This document shows positions 12,572-18,665 of a stretch of 64,000 nt of DNA, one piece after another. The DNA is from Neorhizobium sp. SOG26. Its GTDB lineage: Bacteria > Pseudomonadota > Alphaproteobacteria > Rhizobiales > Rhizobiaceae. Below the pieces are notes generated by a model. That model made no database searches. It had not been told where the DNA came from and saw only the letters and a list, made by a program, of their open reading frames with translations. The stretch covers positions 2,418,001-2,482,000 of the forward strand of contig NZ_CP025512.1 in NCBI RefSeq assembly GCF_003491345.1, read 5' to 3'. The position numbers were made by a program, and so were the translations under genes. Position 1 is the first letter of the stretch, and the number at the start of each line of letters is the position of its first letter.

Positions 12572-12597
12572 AACCCCAAACCCGCACGCAGGGTTCC
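12572..12597 (-). promoter_or_regulatory. EcfG/RpoE2-type general stress promoter (DUF892 gene)
   Basis: On the minus strand GGAAC (12597-12593) is followed after 17 bases by GGTT (12575-12572). This matches the rhizobial consensus GGAAC-N16/17-cGTT. The expected transcript start is about 45 bp before the start codon. Confidence 0.6.
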
Positions 12598-12668
12598 TCC
12601 CAAGTGTGAGGGAACCAACGCATGCGGCGCGGGATTGACCCTCCATGATGCCAGTGCGCCTCGCCCCA

Positions 12669-12694
12669 GGAACATAGGGTGCCGCGCGGCGGTT
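12669..12694 (+). promoter_or_regulatory. EcfG/RpoE2-type general stress promoter (proline-rich peptide gene)
   Basis: GGAAC (12669-12673), 17 bases, GGTT (12691-12694). The start codon at 12719 lies about 18 bp beyond the expected transcript start, with GAGGAG between them. A further, weaker GGAAC-N17-GATT lies at 12611-12636. Confidence 0.6.
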
Positions 12695-12718
12695 TGTAGA
12701 ACACCGAGGAGTTTTGCG

Positions 12719-12889
12719 ATGATACCAGATCCTCAGGAACCGGGCGAAGTTCCGACGATGCCGCCACCGATCTGGACACCGGATCCACCGATCAACGAGC
12801 CGGAGCCCGATCGGCTGCCGGATGAGGATCCGATCCCGAACCCGGACGAAAACCCCAACCCGCCGGTCTACACGCCACCGGCGGCCTGA
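12719..12889 (+). CDS. Proline-rich small acidic protein, unknown function
   Basis: The 56-aa product (MIPDPQEPGEVPTMPPP...) is about one third proline and strongly acidic, with no membrane segment. It is part of a longer open frame, but the ATG at 12719 is the only one with a good ribosome site (GAGGAG, 8 bases upstream) and a stress-type promoter at the right distance. It lies between two other genes with such promoters. It is probably disordered; role unknown. Confidence 0.6.
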   Translation: MIPDPQEPGEVPTMPPPIWTPDPPINEPEPDRLPDEDPIPNPDENPNPPVYTPPAA

Positions 12890-12930
12890 GAGGAAACGGA
12901 GCACGCTGCAGGGCAGCCATGCCCGCGCTT

Positions 12931-12956
12931 GGAACAATTTGCAAAATTGATGCGTT
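12931..12956 (+). promoter_or_regulatory. EcfG/RpoE2-type general stress promoter (phospholipase D-family gene)
   Basis: GGAAC (12931-12935), 17 bases, CGTT (12953-12956): an exact match to the general-stress consensus. It lies about 30 bp before the GTG start at 12987, leaving a short leader with GAGG. Confidence 0.7.
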
Positions 12957-12986
12957 GACCGGCCATTTCGTGGCGAGGTGGCGTAG

Positions 12987-14498
12987 GTGCAGTTTACGAC
13001 AAATTCTAAGGTCCAGGATGGGCAACCGGAGCCGATCATTCGGCCCGGGCGAAATGCATTCGGAAGCGCAAAGGCCGAAAAGGTCGCCTTCCTGATCGAC
13101 GGTGATGAATATTTCCGCCGGCTAGACCAGGTGCTGCGGCAGGCCGAACGTTCGATCTTCATCGTCGGCTGGGACTTCAATCCCGGCATCCGCCTGAGGC
13201 CGAAGGAAGAAGGCAGCGAAACGCTCGGCATGCTTCTTCGCAGCCTTGTCGAGGAAAAGCCGGGGCTGGAAGTGCGCATCCTCGTCTGGGGCATGGGTCC
13301 GGTTTATTCCGGCAAGAGCCTCAAGATGTTCGGCAAGATGGAGTGGAGCGACCATCCGCGCATCCGGCTGGAGTTTGATTTCGAACATCCCCTGCGGGCG
13401 AGCCATCACCAGAAAATCGTGGCGATCGACGATCGCACCGCCTTCCTTGGCGGCATCGACCTGACCGCCCGACGGTGGGACGACCGTTCGCATGCTGTCG
13501 TTAATCCCACCCGCTGCTCTCCCGACGGCACCTGCTACGGCCCGGTGCATGACATGCAGACCATCGTGACCGGCGACATCGCCAAGCTGATCGGCGACGT
13601 GACCCGGCGGCGGTGGAAGAAAGCGACCAAGGAGCCGGTGCAGCCGGTAGAGACATCCGCAAATGCTGCGCCATGGCCTGAAGATCTCCCGCCTGCGCTT
13701 TTGAACTGCAGGGCAGGACTGGCGCTGACCGAACCCTGGAAATGGAAGGGTCGCCGCGGCCATCGGGAGGCGATCCGCCTGACGCATGATGCGCTGAAAG
13801 CGGCCCGCCGTCATCTTTACATCGAGACCCAGTATCTTGCCTCCTTTGGCGTTGCCCACACGTTGGCGCGCCAACTCAAGAAGGCGACCGGGCCGGAAGT
13901 GGTGGTGATCGTCACCCGGGAGTCGCACGGCTTCCTGGAAAAGCTGATGATGGGCAACAACCGCACCCGGCTGATCCGCCGCCTCATGCGCGCCGACCGC
14001 TACAACCGCCTGCGCATCTTCTACGCGACCGTGCCGGACGAAACCGGCAACGACCGCGAGATCATCGTGCATTCGAAGCTGATCATCGTTGACGACCGTT
14101 TCGTCCGCGTCGGTTCCTCGAACCTGAACAACCGATCGGAAGGGCTGGACACGGAGGCCGACCTTGCGGTCGAGACCACAGACCCGAACGGGCGCGAGGC
14201 GATCGTGGCGCTGCGCAGCGATCTGCTGGCGGAGCATCTCGATGCCGATCCGGCCGAGGTAGACAGGATCATCCGCGAAACCGGTTCGATGATCGCCGCC
14301 GTGGATCAGCTGAACGTCAAGCCGCGTGGCCTGCGCGCCTTTGATGTCGATGCCCATAAGGGTGAGGTCAGCTCGCTGCCGGGAACGGGAATCATGGATC
14401 CGAAGCAGCCGTTCTGGCCGATTCCCGAGATCCGTTCGGGTGCGCGACGTCTGTTCGGCCGGCTCTTCCACCGGCTGTCACATCACCGTCTGCTGTGA
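12987..14498 (+). CDS. Phospholipase D/cardiolipin synthase-family protein (ClsB-like)
   Basis: The 503-aa protein has the two HKD catalytic motifs of the phospholipase D superfamily: HHQKIVAIDDRTAFLGG (about residue 138) and VHSKLIIVDDRFVRVGSSN (about 360). There is no N-terminal membrane segment, as in ClsB (YbhO) but unlike ClsA. It starts at GTG behind GAGG. With the neighbouring YbhN- and YbhP-like genes it rebuilds the E. coli ybhPON set, though here the three are not in one operon. Phospholipid transphosphatidylation at the membrane is likely. Its promoter and that of its partners are of the general-stress type. Confidence 0.88.
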   Translation: MQFTTNSKVQDGQPEPIIRPGRNAFGSAKAEKVAFLIDGDEYFRRLDQVLRQAERSIFIVGWDFNPGIRLRPKEEGSETLGMLLRSLVEEKPGLEVRILVWGMGPVYSGKSLKMFGKMEWSDHPRIRLEFDFEHPLRASHHQKIVAIDDRTAFLGGIDLTARRWDDRSHAVVNPTRCSPDGTCYGPVHDMQTIVTGDIAKLIGDVTRRRWKKATKEPVQPVETSANAAPWPEDLPPALLNCRAGLALTEPWKWKGRRGHREAIRLTHDALKAARRHLYIETQYLASFGVAHTLARQLKKATGPEVVVIVTRESHGFLEKLMMGNNRTRLIRRLMRADRYNRLRIFYATVPDETGNDREIIVHSKLIIVDDRFVRVGSSNLNNRSEGLDTEADLAVETTDPNGREAIVALRSDLLAEHLDADPAEVDRIIRETGSMIAAVDQLNVKPRGLRAFDVDAHKGEVSSLPGTGIMDPKQPFWPIPEIRSGARRLFGRLFHRLSHHRLL

Positions 14499-15419
14499 AT
14501 AACGGCCGCCGCGATGACGATGGTAGGCCTCGCTGGCAATCAGCGTCGGGATGCCGACAAGCAGCGGGATAAAGAAATAAAGCACACGAAACGCAACCAG
14601 CGCGCCGATGGCAGCCGTCGTCGGCAAGATGTTGAGCATCGTCGCTTCCAGCACGCCAAGCCCGCCGGGAACATGGCTGACCAGCGCCGCGATGTTGGCG
14701 GTTACATAAGCGGTCGCGACATCCATGTAGCTGGCACTGGTGAAACCGGCGAGAAGCTGGTGGATGCAAGCCGCCACGCAGGCGAAGTTGAGCGTACCAA
14801 TGCCGATCTGTCCGAGCGCAATTGTCAGTCTCGGCGGCTCGAATCGCCATTTCCACAGCCGCAGCGGACGGCGGATAGTGGCGCAGACCAGCAGGTAAAC
14901 GGCTGGACCGGCAAGGCAGACGAGCCCGGCTGCGATGCGGCCGACGAGATCGAGGCCAAGCAGGTTTTCCTTCGCGCTTGGCTGCAGGATGAGCGCGAGG
15001 CCCGCGAGCGTCAGCAGGCCGAGCCCGACCGTGACGCCACAGAACAGGATGATCTTGGCGATCTGTTCGCCGCTCAGACCCCAACGCGAGTAAAAGCGAT
15101 AACGGACGGCGCCGCTGCTCAGCGCCGCAAAGCCGAGGTTATGGCCGATCGACAAGGCGGTGAAGGAGGCAAGCGCCGTCTGCCGATAGGCCAGCGACTT
15201 TCCGACATACCGCGCCGCAAGCGTGTCGAAACCGGTCAGGCAGAGATAGGACAGCACGACGAAGCCGAAGGCAGAGAGCAGGCGCCATCGGGAAATCGAC
15301 ATCACCGATTCCTCGATCTCATCAAGGGTATAGCGGCCAAGGCTGCGATAGATGAGCAAGGCGGCCAGGCAGATCACGACGCCAACAAAGACCTTCAGGA
15401 TGTGGTGTCTGGTGATCAT
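14478..15419 (-). CDS. YbhN-like (lysylphosphatidylglycerol synthetase membrane-domain/UPF0104) protein
   Basis: The 313-aa integral membrane protein has about eight hydrophobic segments and UPF0104 motifs: GHNLGFAALSSGAVRYRFY and VSHVPGGLGVLEATML. The start at 15419 is preferred because GAGAGGGG precedes it; the frame is open 16 codons further. It overlaps the 3' end of the phospholipase D-family gene by 21 bp (convergent) and is divergent from the ybhP-like gene. Relatives act in lipid transfer or flipping, but no activity can be read from this sequence. Confidence 0.85.
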   Translation of the reverse strand: MITRHHILKVFVGVVICLAALLIYRSLGRYTLDEIEESVMSISRWRLLSAFGFVVLSYLCLTGFDTLAARYVGKSLAYRQTALASFTALSIGHNLGFAALSSGAVRYRFYSRWGLSGEQIAKIILFCGVTVGLGLLTLAGLALILQPSAKENLLGLDLVGRIAAGLVCLAGPAVYLLVCATIRRPLRLWKWRFEPPRLTIALGQIGIGTLNFACVAACIHQLLAGFTSASYMDVATAYVTANIAALVSHVPGGLGVLEATMLNILPTTAAIGALVAFRVLYFFIPLLVGIPTLIASEAYHRHRGGRYSQQTVM

Positions 15420-15449
15420 GGCCCCTCTCTTGCACAAAGTTCCAAGAGC

Positions 15450-15476
15450 GGAACGAAAAGCCGCCAAACGGGTTCC
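15450..15476. promoter_or_regulatory. Bidirectional general stress promoter between ybhN-like and ybhP-like genes
   Basis: One 27-bp segment contains GGAAC-N16-GGTT on the plus strand (15450-15474) and GGAAC-N16-CGTT on the minus strand (15476-15452). The -35 box of each direction overlaps the -10 box of the other. The minus promoter leaves about 25 bp of leader before the start at 15419. The plus promoter lies only 9 bp from the ATG at 15484. Confidence 0.65.
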
Positions 15477-15483
15477 CTGCGCT

Positions 15484-16260
15484 ATGAATAAGCCCGTTGC
15501 AGCCGCAAATACCCCGCCCGCATCGCCACCGCTTGCCGCAAGAACGCGCCTGAAGGTGCTGAGCTACAACGTGCATAGCTGCATCGGCACCGACCGGAAG
15601 CTTGATCCGGAACGCATCGCGGAAGTCATTGCCGAGGTGAACCCGGACATCATCGGCCTGCAGGAACTGGACGTCGGCCGCATGCGCACGGCGGGCGTCG
15701 ACCAGGCGCACACGATCGCTTCGCTCCTCAAGATGGAGTTCCACTTTCACCCGGCACTGCGGGTGCAGGAGGAGCATTATGGAGACGCGATCCTGACCGC
15801 GTTTCCCGCCCGTCTTATCAAGGCGGGCGACCTGCGCTCCACCGGCGAGCAACGCGGCGCGTTATGGGTCGAGGTGGATGTTGGCGACAAGAAGCTGCAG
15901 GTGTTCAACACACACCTAGGCTTGCGGGGCGCCGATCGGCTGAACCAGATCGGCGAACTGCTCGGGCCTTCCTGGATCAACCATCCGGATGCGGCTGGCA
16001 AGCCGCGCATTCTGATCGGCGACTTCAATTCCCCGCCGATCACCGCCACCTACAAGGCGATTGCCCGCCAGCTTACCGACGTGCAACGAAAGACGAATGG
16101 CCGCAATGCCGCCACCTATCCCTCGCGCTTTCCGTTCATGAAGATCGACCACATATTTGTCTCGGACGGAGTGGAAGCGGTTGAAACGACTGCCGTCTCG
16201 ACACCGCTGGCGCGCCTCGCCTCAGACCACCTGCCCCTACTCGCCACGGTGGACGTCTGA
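15484..16260 (+). CDS. Endonuclease/exonuclease/phosphatase-family protein (YbhP-like)
   Basis: The 258-aa protein has the family motifs LSYNVHSCIG, IGLQELD (catalytic Glu), THLGLRG, IGDFNSPP (Asp/Asn) and SDHLPLL (catalytic His), so all Mg-dependent hydrolase residues are present. It has no signal peptide. The ATG at 15484 has no recognisable ribosome site and lies 9 bp after a -10 box, suggesting leaderless translation. An alternative start is the ATG at 15418. The substrate may be nucleic acid or an inositol/phospholipid phosphate; the ybhPON-like context favours lipids. Confidence 0.85.
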   Translation: MNKPVAAANTPPASPPLAARTRLKVLSYNVHSCIGTDRKLDPERIAEVIAEVNPDIIGLQELDVGRMRTAGVDQAHTIASLLKMEFHFHPALRVQEEHYGDAILTAFPARLIKAGDLRSTGEQRGALWVEVDVGDKKLQVFNTHLGLRGADRLNQIGELLGPSWINHPDAAGKPRILIGDFNSPPITATYKAIARQLTDVQRKTNGRNAATYPSRFPFMKIDHIFVSDGVEAVETTAVSTPLARLASDHLPLLATVDV

Positions 16261-16941
16261 CCGGGCACGACGCGCCATATCCTCGCGCGCCAGCTTCAGA
16301 AGCCGGATCACCTCCTGGTCATCGACCTGGTCGAAGTCGTCGTAGAAGAGGCTGACGCCATCAAGCCGCTCCGGTGTGGCAAGGCACGTCACCTGTTCCA
16401 CCTCCTGGCTAAGCAGTTCAACAACAGCGGCGGGCGCAACCGGTACGGCGACATGGATGCTGGATACGCCGATCTCCCTGAGCCGTGCAATGGCGGCGCG
16501 TATCGACACGCCGTTCGCGACGCCATCATCGACAAGCACGATCGGGCGTCCAGCATGATCCGGCGTCTTGTCGGCATCCTCGCCGAGATACATCCGGCGG
16601 CGGCGGTCGATCTCCGCAAGCTGGCGGTCGCGTTCAGCCGCGATATAGCCCGGTGGTAGCTGGAATTGCCGCGCGGCTTCCTCGCTCACCACCACATGCG
16701 GCTCGCGCCCATGGACGACGGCGCCGATGCCGATTTCAGGATGCCCCGGCGCACCAATCTTTCGGACGATCAGGACATGCAGCGGCGCGGCAAGCCGCTG
16801 CGCGATCTCGAAGCCCACGGGCACGCCGCCACGCGGCAGGGCCACCACCACCGGGTCACGGAGGTCGCTGGCCAGAAGCGCTTCTGCGAGCTGCCGTCCG
16901 GCATCTGCTCGGTTGGAAAAAGTAGAGCGTTGCGCAAGCAT
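16237..16941 (-). CDS. Phosphoribosyltransferase-domain protein
   Basis: The 234-aa protein has the type I PRPP-binding loop IVLVDDGVANGVSIRAA, the N-terminal stretch VVALPRGGVPVGFEIA and a hood region with VRKIGAPGHPEIGIGAV. Proteins of this type are stand-alone, often stress-associated phosphoribosyltransferase-fold proteins of uncertain substrate rather than purine-salvage enzymes. Its 3' end overlaps the convergent ybhP-like gene by 24 bp. A GGAAC-N17-GGTT element lies about 85 bp upstream. Confidence 0.85.
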   Translation of the reverse strand: MLAQRSTFSNRADAGRQLAEALLASDLRDPVVVALPRGGVPVGFEIAQRLAAPLHVLIVRKIGAPGHPEIGIGAVVHGREPHVVVSEEAARQFQLPPGYIAAERDRQLAEIDRRRRMYLGEDADKTPDHAGRPIVLVDDGVANGVSIRAAIARLREIGVSSIHVAVPVAPAAVVELLSQEVEQVTCLATPERLDGVSLFYDDFDQVDDQEVIRLLKLAREDMARRARSDVHRGE

Positions 16942-17022
16942 GTCATCCTCCCAGACCCGCCGGTCATGTCATTCGGTCATCGAAATCAGACCTGCAACGT
17001 CGACACCCGGGGCGGGTTCGTC

Positions 17023-17048
17023 AACCTTTGGGAGGAAGACCGGGTTCC
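17023..17048 (-). promoter_or_regulatory. EcfG/RpoE2-type general stress promoter (phosphoribosyltransferase gene)
   Basis: On the minus strand GGAAC (17048-17044), 17 bases, GGTT (17026-17023). It would give a leader of about 75 bases before the gene starting at 16941. Confidence 0.5.
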
Positions 17049-17078
17049 ACACCCGGCCCTCGTTTCGGATCCACCGGC

Positions 17079-17336
17079 TTAGCCGCGACCCTTGTTGTGT
17101 TCGCTTTCCTGGTTGTGCCCGCGAATGATCGATGGATCGTCGTTCATCGAAACGTCTGCGGCACGCATGTCGAGGTTGTCGCCGCGACGGAAGGCGTCAC
17201 GCGCCTCGTCGCTGCGCTTCAGATCAGTTTCAGCATCGAAATCCTTGCCGGCATTGGCCGTGTTGATCTGCTTTTCAAGGATCGCGCGCTGTTGCTGGTG
17301 GGTCTTGGTGCCCTGCAGGTTCTTGTCGACTTGCAT
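17079..17336 (-). CDS. Small hydrophilic protein, unknown function
   Basis: The 85-aa protein starts behind AGGAGG. It is highly charged (Lys, Asp, Arg, Gln, Asn) with no hydrophobic segment, beginning MQVDKNLQGTKTHQQQ. It is the last of three same-strand small genes (17879 to 17079) with short gaps (18 and 48 bp), probably one transcript under the stress promoter at 17911-17935. Function unknown. Confidence 0.65.
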   Translation of the reverse strand: MQVDKNLQGTKTHQQQRAILEKQINTANAGKDFDAETDLKRSDEARDAFRRGDNLDMRAADVSMNDDPSIIRGHNQESEHNKGRG

Positions 17337-17354
17337 TGAAAAACCTCCTTTGGC

Positions 17355-17561
17355 TTATTTGTTGGCGCGGCCGCGCTGGTCAGGATCAACGCCACCGAAG
17401 CGATGGGTGTCGTTTGCGACATCACCTTCCTCGGTGTTTTCGCCTGCGATCGCTTCATCTCCGGTAAAGCGGTTTAGGCCCTTCGACTGGCCGATGCCGG
17501 GGTCATTGCGCAGGTCGGCATCGCTCGGCGTGTGCGTCTTGAAGTGCTTGGACGTGGACAT
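17355..17561 (-). CDS. Small hydrophilic protein, unknown function
   Basis: The 68-aa product begins MSTSKHFKTHTPSDADLRND. The second of two adjacent ATGs is chosen because GGAGG then lies six bases upstream. It is rich in Asp, Gly, Asn and Thr, with no membrane segment. It is the middle gene of the three-gene set with 17079 and 17610. Confidence 0.6.
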   Translation of the reverse strand: MSTSKHFKTHTPSDADLRNDPGIGQSKGLNRFTGDEAIAGENTEEGDVANDTHRFGGVDPDQRGRANK

Positions 17562-17609
17562 CATGGTCCTCCTTGGCTCTGGTTCTGTCGCGCGAGGTGA
17601 CGCGCGGCC

Positions 17610-17879
17610 TCAGTGCTTCGTGCGGGACACGAATTTGTTGAAGCGGCTCGTCTTGCCGGCTTCGGTCTCTTCCTGGAAAAGGAATGCCAGCTTGTTTTCG
17701 TCAAAGATCGAGAAGAAGTCGTCCCATTCGATTTCTTCCAGCGAGTCTTCCGGCTTGCCGAAATCGACGCGTAAAAGGCCACCTTCACCGGCGCCCTTGA
17801 CGCGAGCCGGATGGCCGCCACGTTCTTCAATCCATTGGCGAATCTGCTTGTGATCGGTGGTTTCGACTGCCTTGCTCAT
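17610..17879 (-). CDS. Small conserved protein, unknown function (stress-type promoter)
   Basis: The 89-aa protein starts at the ATG at 17879 behind AAAGGAG; the frame is open upstream but lacks a ribosome site. It opens with [19 protein letters not shown] and contains an acidic, aromatic part with [15 protein letters not shown] and LAFLFQEE. This looks like a small folded domain found as a stand-alone protein in rhizobia. It is the first gene of the three-gene set and has a GGAAC-N16-GGTT promoter with a leader of about 25 bases. Confidence 0.75.
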
Positions 17880-17910
17880 GGCCGGTTCTCCTTTCCTCGT
17901 GTGAAAGCAG

Positions 17911-17935
17911 AACCGGAACACCATGCTTATGTTCC
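17911..17935 (-). promoter_or_regulatory. EcfG/RpoE2-type general stress promoter (17879-17079 gene set)
   Basis: On the minus strand GGAAC (17935-17931), 16 bases, GGTT (17914-17911). The spacing to the start codon at 17879 fits a leader of about 25 bases with AAAGGAG. Confidence 0.65.
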
Positions 17936-17979
17936 GCGATTTACGCGGCGCCTTTGACGCAAATCTGCCAAGTTTCCTT

Positions 17980-18004
17980 GGAACAAAACTCACGAACTCG
18001 TGTT
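17980..18004 (+). promoter_or_regulatory. Plus-strand general stress promoter with no downstream gene
   Basis: GGAAC (17980-17984), 16 bases, TGTT (18001-18004). It points into a region with no plus-strand gene but with a strong intrinsic terminator about 65 bp on. Confidence 0.5.
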
Positions 18005-18010
18005 CAAGCC

Positions 18011-18099
18011 GTGTCGCACGCGTGACCTCCATACGTACGACAGCGTCATAAGTACCCTCCCCAACTGGCGCTTCCCTGCCCGGGAAGCGCCGTTCTTTT
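18011..18099 (+). ncRNA. Candidate stress-induced small RNA of about 90 nt
   Basis: The limits are inferred from the promoter at 17980-18004 and the terminator ending near 18099. The genes on both sides are on the minus strand, so the terminator has no protein-gene partner. The single-stranded part before the hairpin carries ACCTCC and ACCCTCCCC, C-rich stretches able to pair with Shine-Dalgarno sites, as in several alphaproteobacterial trans-acting sRNAs. I found no open frame with a ribosome site in it. It is not assigned to a known family. Confidence 0.5.
18067..18099 (+). terminator. Intrinsic terminator of the candidate sRNA
   Basis: GGCGCTTCCC and GGGAAGCGCC form a perfect 10-bp stem with loop TGCCC, followed by GTTCTTTT. 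The T-rich side is on the plus strand only; the minus-strand side lacks a T-tract, so it does not serve the XRE gene's neighbours. Confidence 0.75.
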
Positions 18100-18104
18100 A
18101 TCGA

Positions 18105-18665
18105 TCATCTGCGCGTCAGCGCGATGAGATAACGGGTGGCTTCTGGCGTCGGATTGAAGAACACGCAGTCGGCCGGCGGGCCGAGCATCAGGCAATCGCC
18201 CTGCCCCAGGTGATGAAGCGTCGGACCCTCCTGGAAATCGAGTTTCCCATCCAGAACCCAAATCTGCTGTTGCTGGAAGGCGAAGGCGGCTGCCGGATAA
18301 GGCACCCGCACGCCCGGCGGCAGGACCACCTCGAGAAGCTCGACCAGCGCGTTGGGAGGCGAGACCGCGCGGCGTGTATAACCAGTCTCCGGGTCGGTCC
18401 AGATGGGCTGCTCGGCAGAGAAGCTGAGGCGTTGCTCCTGCCGTTCCGCCAGCGCCAGCAGCACGGACAGCGGCAGCCCGAACGCTCCAGACAGGCGGCC
18501 AAGCACGGTGGCCGTCGGGCTCGCCTCCATCCGCTCGATCTTGCTGATCATCGCCTTCGAGACGCCGGACCGCTCTCCGAGCTCCGCCAGCGACCAGCCG
18601 CGCTGTTCCCGCTCCAGCTTCAGCCGGGCGGCGATGGCATGAACTGGGTCCGGATCAGCTGACAT
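18105..18665 (-). CDS. XRE-family regulator with C-terminal cupin domain
   Basis: The 186-aa protein has an N-terminal helix-turn-helix (about 10-65; WSLAELGERSGVSKAMISKIE) and a C-terminal cupin (about 105-180) with VVLPPGVRVPYPAAA and LHHLGQGDCLMLGPP. This is the usual architecture of small-molecule-sensing repressors of catabolic genes. It is divergent from the LLM monooxygenase gene, and a long inverted repeat lies between them. Autoregulation and control of the monooxygenase-MFS pair are the likely roles. Confidence 0.9.
   Translation of the reverse strand: MSADPDPVHAIAARLKLEREQRGWSLAELGERSGVSKAMISKIERMEASPTATVLGRLSGAFGLPLSVLLALAERQEQRLSFSAEQPIWTDPETGYTRRAVSPPNALVELLEVVLPPGVRVPYPAAAFAFQQQQIWVLDGKLDFQEGPTLHHLGQGDCLMLGPPADCVFFNPTPEATRYLIALTRR

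Follow-up and report, generated by a model that had tools for sequence, protein, structure and literature searches.

A predicted small RNA gene behind a general-stress-type promoter in Neorhizobium sp. SOG26 and its close relatives

Does the gap between two minus-strand genes of Neorhizobium sp. SOG26 hold the gene of a small RNA (sRNA) under general-stress control? An original prediction, made on the 64,000-nucleotide stretch that we analyzed (hereafter the window), had placed there a plus-strand GGAAC-N16-TGTT promoter and a strong plus-strand terminator. We found both as quoted at 17980-18099, with flanking genes that are indeed on the minus strand. The letters given for the unit of about 90 nt, with ACCTCC and ACCCTCCCC (18054-18062) ahead of the hairpin, are all correct. 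On the plus strand, the promoter is followed by about 90 bases and then by an 11-pair hairpin with TTCTTTT (Table 1). Our conclusion is that 17980-18099 very probably encodes a short regulatory RNA which this soil bacterium switches on with its general stress programme; an exposed C-rich part of the RNA looks made to block the start sites on messages of other genes.

Table 1. Features of the locus and of the general stress response (GSR) locus; positions are those of the window unless another locus is named
Feature	Position	Strand	Basis and remarks
EcfG-type (general stress sigma) promoter	17980..18004	+	GGAAC 17980-17984, N16, TGTT 18001-18004; motif match
Predicted small RNA, about 88-91 nt	18008..18098	+	Conserved block, covariance models R1/R2, fold; start placed from promoter position, end from terminator
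5' hairpin, ACCUCC (18025-18030) in loop	18013..18041	+	Fold and two-sided changes
Unpaired linker GUCAUAAGUACCCUCCCCAAC, proposed seed	18045..18065	+	Complement of ribosome-binding site (RBS) plus AUG; CCTCCC conservation
Rho-independent terminator	18066..18099	+	Stem 18066-18076/18082-18092, TTCTTTT 18093-18099
Divergent EcfG-type promoter of 89-aa gene	17911..17935	-	GGAAC-N16-GGTT
89-aa conserved protein gene, divergent neighbour of sRNA	17610..17879	-	Reading frame; relatives found; Pfam search of the protein without match
HTH-regulator gene, other neighbour of sRNA	18105-18665	-	
GSR locus	L118:2590-4300		ecfG-nepR (-) divergent from phyR-like (+)

Taken singly, no motif of the unit exceeds chance. 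One promoter match alone is weak evidence, because the window has 10 GGAAC-N16/17-NGTT sites against a mean of 2.8 expected from a first-order Markov model of the window (maximum 6 in 50 runs). Terminator-like sites in the 4-kb region are unremarkable too, with 4 found and 3.6 expected from shuffles. The decisive evidence is conservation.

Conservation and reach of the unit

A 231-base query around the unit matched 15 of 60 genomes; all belong to the window's genus, and the window's own genome is among them. The matches in the seven best relatives started at query base 101, which is position 17980, and ended at 211-220, in the terminator; the conserved block thus coincides with the promoter-to-terminator unit. 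Two covariance models, R1 from 21 distinct sequences (alignment A2) and R2 from 32 loci, describe the RNA only and leave the promoter out. R1 matched 40 of the 57 genomes of the genus at E <= 0.05. At E <= 0.01, R2 matched 37, with a single hit in each at E 3.2e-5 or lower, and gave no match in the other 20. All 37 matches aligned across the full model, terminator hairpin included. These 37 genomes had all been found by R1 already; as we judged, 21 contributed to A2 and 16 contributed no sequence to it. Second, weak R2 matches in three genomes (G001, G022 and G030) were rejected, the promoter being absent.

R2 identified the RNA in 13 of the 63 loci that surround relatives of the 89-aa gene, namely those of Rhizobium terrae, Neorhizobium tomejilense, N. 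alkalisoli, N. huautlense, N. petrolearium, Xaviernesmea oryzae, Pseudorhizobium endolithicum and six other strains. Rhizobium halophilum (L023) and Pseudorhizobium tarimense (L024) gave no R2 match in 6.3 kb and retain the 89-aa gene with its stress-type promoter; the sRNA has probably been lost or has strongly diverged in these two. In Rhizobium sp. CSW-27 (L030/L241), the 5' hairpin is much enlarged, giving a 124-nt RNA in which promoter boxes, linker and terminator hairpin are kept.

At least one of the window's neighbour genes was present in 32 of 32 genus loci checked. On the left these are the genes of an eep nuclease, a phosphoribosyltransferase (prt), p85, p69 and the 89-aa protein; on the right, in some loci, those of the HTH regulator and a luciferase-like protein. 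In loci where no 89-aa gene was found, the RNA adjoins prt or stands directly behind eep. We also observed that 8 of the window's 10 promoter-type sites cluster at 12597-17980, among DUF892, PLD-like, LPG-synthase-TM, eep, phosphoribosyltransferase and small-protein genes, a segment that is probably a general-stress gene island. Within it, two overlapping EcfG-type matches in opposite directions lie at 15450-15476, between LPG-synthase-TM (-) and eep (+).

Homologues across the Rhizobiaceae, which the original prediction had led one to look for, did not appear: in the family, order and class samples, the RNA was found in the window's genus only. R1 matched 10 of 394 genomes in the family sample, seven of them in the genus and three outside it without a promoter (L086-L088). 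The order sample gave 3 matches in 297 genomes, one of them outside the genus (L119), again without a promoter. In the class sample, R1 matched 7 of 289 genomes at E <= 0.01, six outside the genus; the promoter check covered five of these (G996 was left out) and found none with a promoter. Promoter boxes were thus present in 0 of 9 weak out-of-genus matches. The plasmid collection held no match to the RNA. In a synteny search of 101 family genomes, 14 gave a match to eep, and the 12 of these that lie outside the genus showed no comparable unit downstream. In one locus (L124), a promoter box lies downstream of eep, ahead of a small reading frame. Rfam 15 gave no match in the window above the gathering threshold; at permissive limits, the region gave four sub-threshold matches with E of 0.87 or worse, nothing credible among them.

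Predicted fold and stress-type promoter

Folding of the window RNA (18008-18098) gave -34.6 kcal/mol with z = -4.16, and 0 of 200 shuffles were as good. Seven homologues folded singly gave z between -1.95 and -7.26. Across the eight RNAs folded, shuffles as good were seen only for L011 (3 of 200) and the 124-nt L030 (6 of 200), and none for the other six. A2 is a MAFFT alignment that was not fitted to the structure, and the structure used is its own RNAalifold consensus. On it, 94.6% of cells pair and two-sided changes occur in 7 of 17 pairs; its covariation score was reached by 0 of 500 shuffles, and slid-partner controls pair in 42-57%. The structure-fitted alignment A3 gave 96.5% and 8 of 17. 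By part, two-sided changes occur in 3 of 7 pairs of the 5' hairpin in A2 (4 of 7 after fitting) and in 4 of 10 pairs of the terminator stem. These compensatory changes support both predicted hairpins, and the modeled architecture of the RNA is a 5' hairpin, an unpaired linker and a terminator.

Since the covariance models do not see the promoter, it serves as an independent test; its boxes sit a few bases upstream of the model start, and overlap it in L084 and L238. At the RNA start, GGAAC-N16/17-NGTT was found in 36 of 37 homologues, L240 having NATT in place of NGTT, and the terminator hairpin is kept in all 37. Retention of both parts in relatives, on which the original prediction had staked itself beforehand, was therefore observed. 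For comparison, the rate of the motif in the homologue loci is 4.2e-4 per base, true sites included. The spacers between the boxes take 28 distinct forms with a mean pairwise identity of 35%; the sequence between the boxes has diverged, and the boxes themselves have been retained. A point against the preferred reading is that the -10 box often reads TGTT or GGTT, a less strict form than CGTT, the -10 consensus of EcfG-type promoters. On the opposite strand, GGAAC-N16/17-GGTT stands ahead of the 89-aa gene in all 15 loci scanned (L016-L030), including the two without an R2 match (L023, L024). With promoters conserved on both strands, the gap is therefore mostly a pair of divergent stress-type promoters.

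At a distance of 107 kb from the sRNA, the genome also has nepR, a sigma-factor gene next to it (ecfG) and a phyR-like gene (nepR at G000:C1:2328682, sRNA at 2436008). NepR was named by family search, ecfG and phyR from their translations. GGAACATTTTTTTGGTACCCACGTT, which has the GGAAC-N16/17-NGTT boxes, precedes the phyR-like gene, and no GsrN-like unit was seen in the gap 3' of ecfG (L118). A weak R1 match near nepR in the window's own genome (17.9 bits, E 0.85) was considered as a GsrN-like paralogue and rejected, because it falls on a terminator-like hairpin that follows another gene and has no EcfG box in its vicinity. The promoter boxes in 36 of 37 homologues, the compensatory changes and the NepR-EcfG-PhyR locus together support the original reading of a stress-sigma-dependent sRNA.

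C-rich linker and candidate targets

A C-rich stretch able to pair with ribosome sites had been proposed as a target loop. The complementarity is present in the sequence; the conserved C-rich stretch, though, is not the loop. The linker, which is predicted to be unpaired, contains CCTCCC in 35 of 37 homologues. The 5' hairpin region has ACCTCC in no more than 18 of the 37, and it is therefore the linker whose C-rich sequence is conserved. The linker GUCAUAAGUACCCUCCCC complements GGGGAGGGUACUUAUGAC, that is, Shine-Dalgarno, spacer and AUG together. Its forms vary among homologues (CAUAAGUACCC, CAUAGAACC and CAUGGAUACC), and 32 of the 37 have CAT ahead of the C-rich run, spaced as a start codon would require, even where the intervening bases differ. 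Because this spacing is kept, GUCAUAAGUACCCUCCCC might be a generic anti-initiation sequence, and the RNA a broad brake on messages with strong Shine-Dalgarno sites, not a regulator of one or two genes; we consider this unlikely.

By comparison of sequences, then, promoter boxes, predicted structure, C-rich linker and neighbourhood are conserved, in a genome with a GSR locus. We infer from these features that the RNA is transcribed, depends on EcfG, and acts by pairing with a repressive outcome. Under stress, PhyR would free sigma-EcfG from NepR, and sigma-EcfG would transcribe the RNA of about 90 nt from GGAAC-N16-TGTT, the terminator hairpin ending the transcript. The linker GUCAUAAGUACCCUCCCC, and in some lineages also the loop, would pair with Shine-Dalgarno regions of the GGGGAGG type, in the best case with the AUG too; pairing would depend on the linker segment CCCUCCCC (altered version, GGGAGGGG). 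Translation of the target mRNA would be blocked, and stress induction would lower target output. We judge it likely that the homologues form a genus-level family of general-stress (sigma-EcfG) trans-acting sRNAs that block ribosome binding sites.

GGGGAGG-N2-13-ATG occurs at 74 sites in the window's own genome and the reversed pattern at 22, an excess to be read in the light of the enrichment of Shine-Dalgarno motifs ahead of any start codon. Duplexes were scored for 42 distinct sites of the 74, present in 50 loci. The lowest energy, -34.1 kcal/mol, belongs to a site that is not a gene start. Next came a PF07486 cell wall hydrolase lipoprotein (-31.6) and a 119-aa frame in L169 (-31.4), then a TPP enzyme (-29.9) and a transglycosylase (-27.0); interspersed in this ranking are two sites that are non-genic or have short frames. 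The best gene-start candidate in this genome is thus the cell wall hydrolase, with GGGGAGGGTAGCGATG. As a conserved target it was rejected: among 30 orthologues examined, from 38 genomes with a match and with script-chosen starts that are doubtful in about five rows, GGGGAGGGTA is kept in one. Most other orthologues have a G-rich site with weaker predicted duplexes, as do all five that we looked at in genomes lacking the sRNA. We also rejected GGGGAGGGTTAAGAATG as a target: it recurs in G398 and G022 as an interspersed repeat and is not a gene start. TCCCCACAAGGGGGAGGGTTAAGAATG likewise occurs at several places in L189-L192 (G022, G398) with no consistent reading frame, as an interspersed repeat. 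Ahead of a pyruvate-dehydrogenase-type lipoyl gene, GGGGAGGG is found in G398 and G005; the counterpart in the window's genome (G000) has GGGAGAGAA, and the next gene of that operon there is preceded by GGGGAGGG. We regard this operon as a lead only. The target prediction with the C-rich segment, which the original prediction had suggested, supported no target within its limited scope, and the sole candidate checked for conservation failed.

Rival readings and relation to known RNAs

Some of these data could be read in other ways. A stress-induced sRNA might act through a protein (Hfq, a cold-shock protein or another binder of C-rich RNA) or by competing with the 16S tail. This would fit a linker conserved beyond the anti-Shine-Dalgarno core (GUC, AUAA-type bases), the failure of the hydrolase as a conserved target, and the motif ACCUCC, which we take to be part of the 16S anti-Shine-Dalgarno sequence. 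We nevertheless consider it unlikely. In a related rhizobial sRNA, NfeR1, the anti-Shine-Dalgarno stretches are reported to act by pairing with a ribosome site (PMC10746234). Less probable still is that the sRNA gene is genuine and a different sigma factor chiefly uses its promoter. GGAAC-type -35 elements are common to several ECF sigma factors, and the -10 box is often NGTT, not CGTT; the same boxes, however, also stand ahead of the phyR-like gene (L118) and, in all 15 loci scanned, of the 89-aa gene.

Two further readings deny the sRNA altogether. The hairpin stem stops 12 bases short of position 18105, the 3' end of the HTH-regulator gene on the minus strand, and the unit could be a cis element that serves as terminator and antisense guard where genes converge or adjoin. 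Yet only the plus strand has the U-tract, in several homologues the HTH gene is unmatched in the 3-kb locus or lies farther off while the RNA unit is intact, and a mere terminator would not conserve an upstream promoter box and a 5' hairpin, so that we hold this reading to be very improbable. Hardest to credit is that the RNA serves as the mRNA of a very small coding gene. Some homologues do have a 9-codon frame, ATG/GTG-ACC-TCC...TCA-TAA, but ATG or GTG precedes ACCTCC in only 9 of 37, the region has indels that are not in threes, and the conserved linker falls after the stop.

The preferred reading, a stress-induced sRNA that pairs with ribosome binding sites, has known counterparts. GsrN of Caulobacter is described as a sigma-T/EcfG-dependent sRNA; predicted rhizobial GsrN-like genes were chosen for proximity to the GSR locus, and C. 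crescentus gsrN itself is distal to it (PMC5869019). The likeness to GsrN that the original prediction drew is one of kind, and as such it agrees with our results: an EcfG-type promoter lies directly upstream (36 of 37 homologues, by motif), C-rich segments are predicted to be exposed, a terminator stands at the 3' end, and membership in the general stress response is predicted here. Unlike the rhizobial GsrN predictions, the window sRNA lies 107 kb from the GSR locus, and unlike in GsrN, the conserved C-rich stretch is a linker, not a 5' loop. Against the exposed 5' C-rich loop of GsrN, hairpin 1 of the window RNA does have ACCUCC, yet only 18 of 37 homologues do. As to possible homology with Caulobacteraceae GsrN, the search by model R1 gave no promoter-bearing match among those examined outside the genus.

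The alpha-r14/NfeR1/'cuckoo' sRNAs are reported to have repeated hairpins with CCUCCUCCC in each loop, and NfeR1 is under LsrB/NtrC (PMC10746234, PMC3927594). The window RNA shares with them C-rich anti-Shine-Dalgarno motifs exposed, as predicted here, for pairing with ribosome sites; it differs in having two hairpins, its main motif in the linker, and ACCUCC and ACCCUCCCC instead of CCUCCUCCC. AbcR1/2 (alpha-r15) likewise has two C-rich anti-Shine-Dalgarno regions in unpaired parts, but with three stem-loops and 114-120 nt (PMC7143759), and no Rfam family of any kind matched the window RNA. For Sinorhizobium meliloti, 23 predicted sRNAs behind RpoE2-type promoters are reported (PMC3616915), which are similar as rhizobial sRNA genes behind a general-stress sigma promoter; we set them apart provisionally by the lack, in the genomes searched, of homologues of the window RNA outside its genus. 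In the open-licence PMC literature, we recognised no report describing this family. On the best reading, the window RNA is a new family of a known kind, that of GsrN and of the anti-Shine-Dalgarno sRNAs NfeR1 and AbcR.

In the literature examined, GsrN is the characterised general-stress sRNA of Alphaproteobacteria, and the present RNA, for which the comparative support is strong, would be a second family, in another lineage and at another locus. With one promoter, two hairpins and one conserved seed, it offers a compact test case in culturable rhizobia. A second family would show that the recruitment of C-rich anti-Shine-Dalgarno RNAs to EcfG control recurs.
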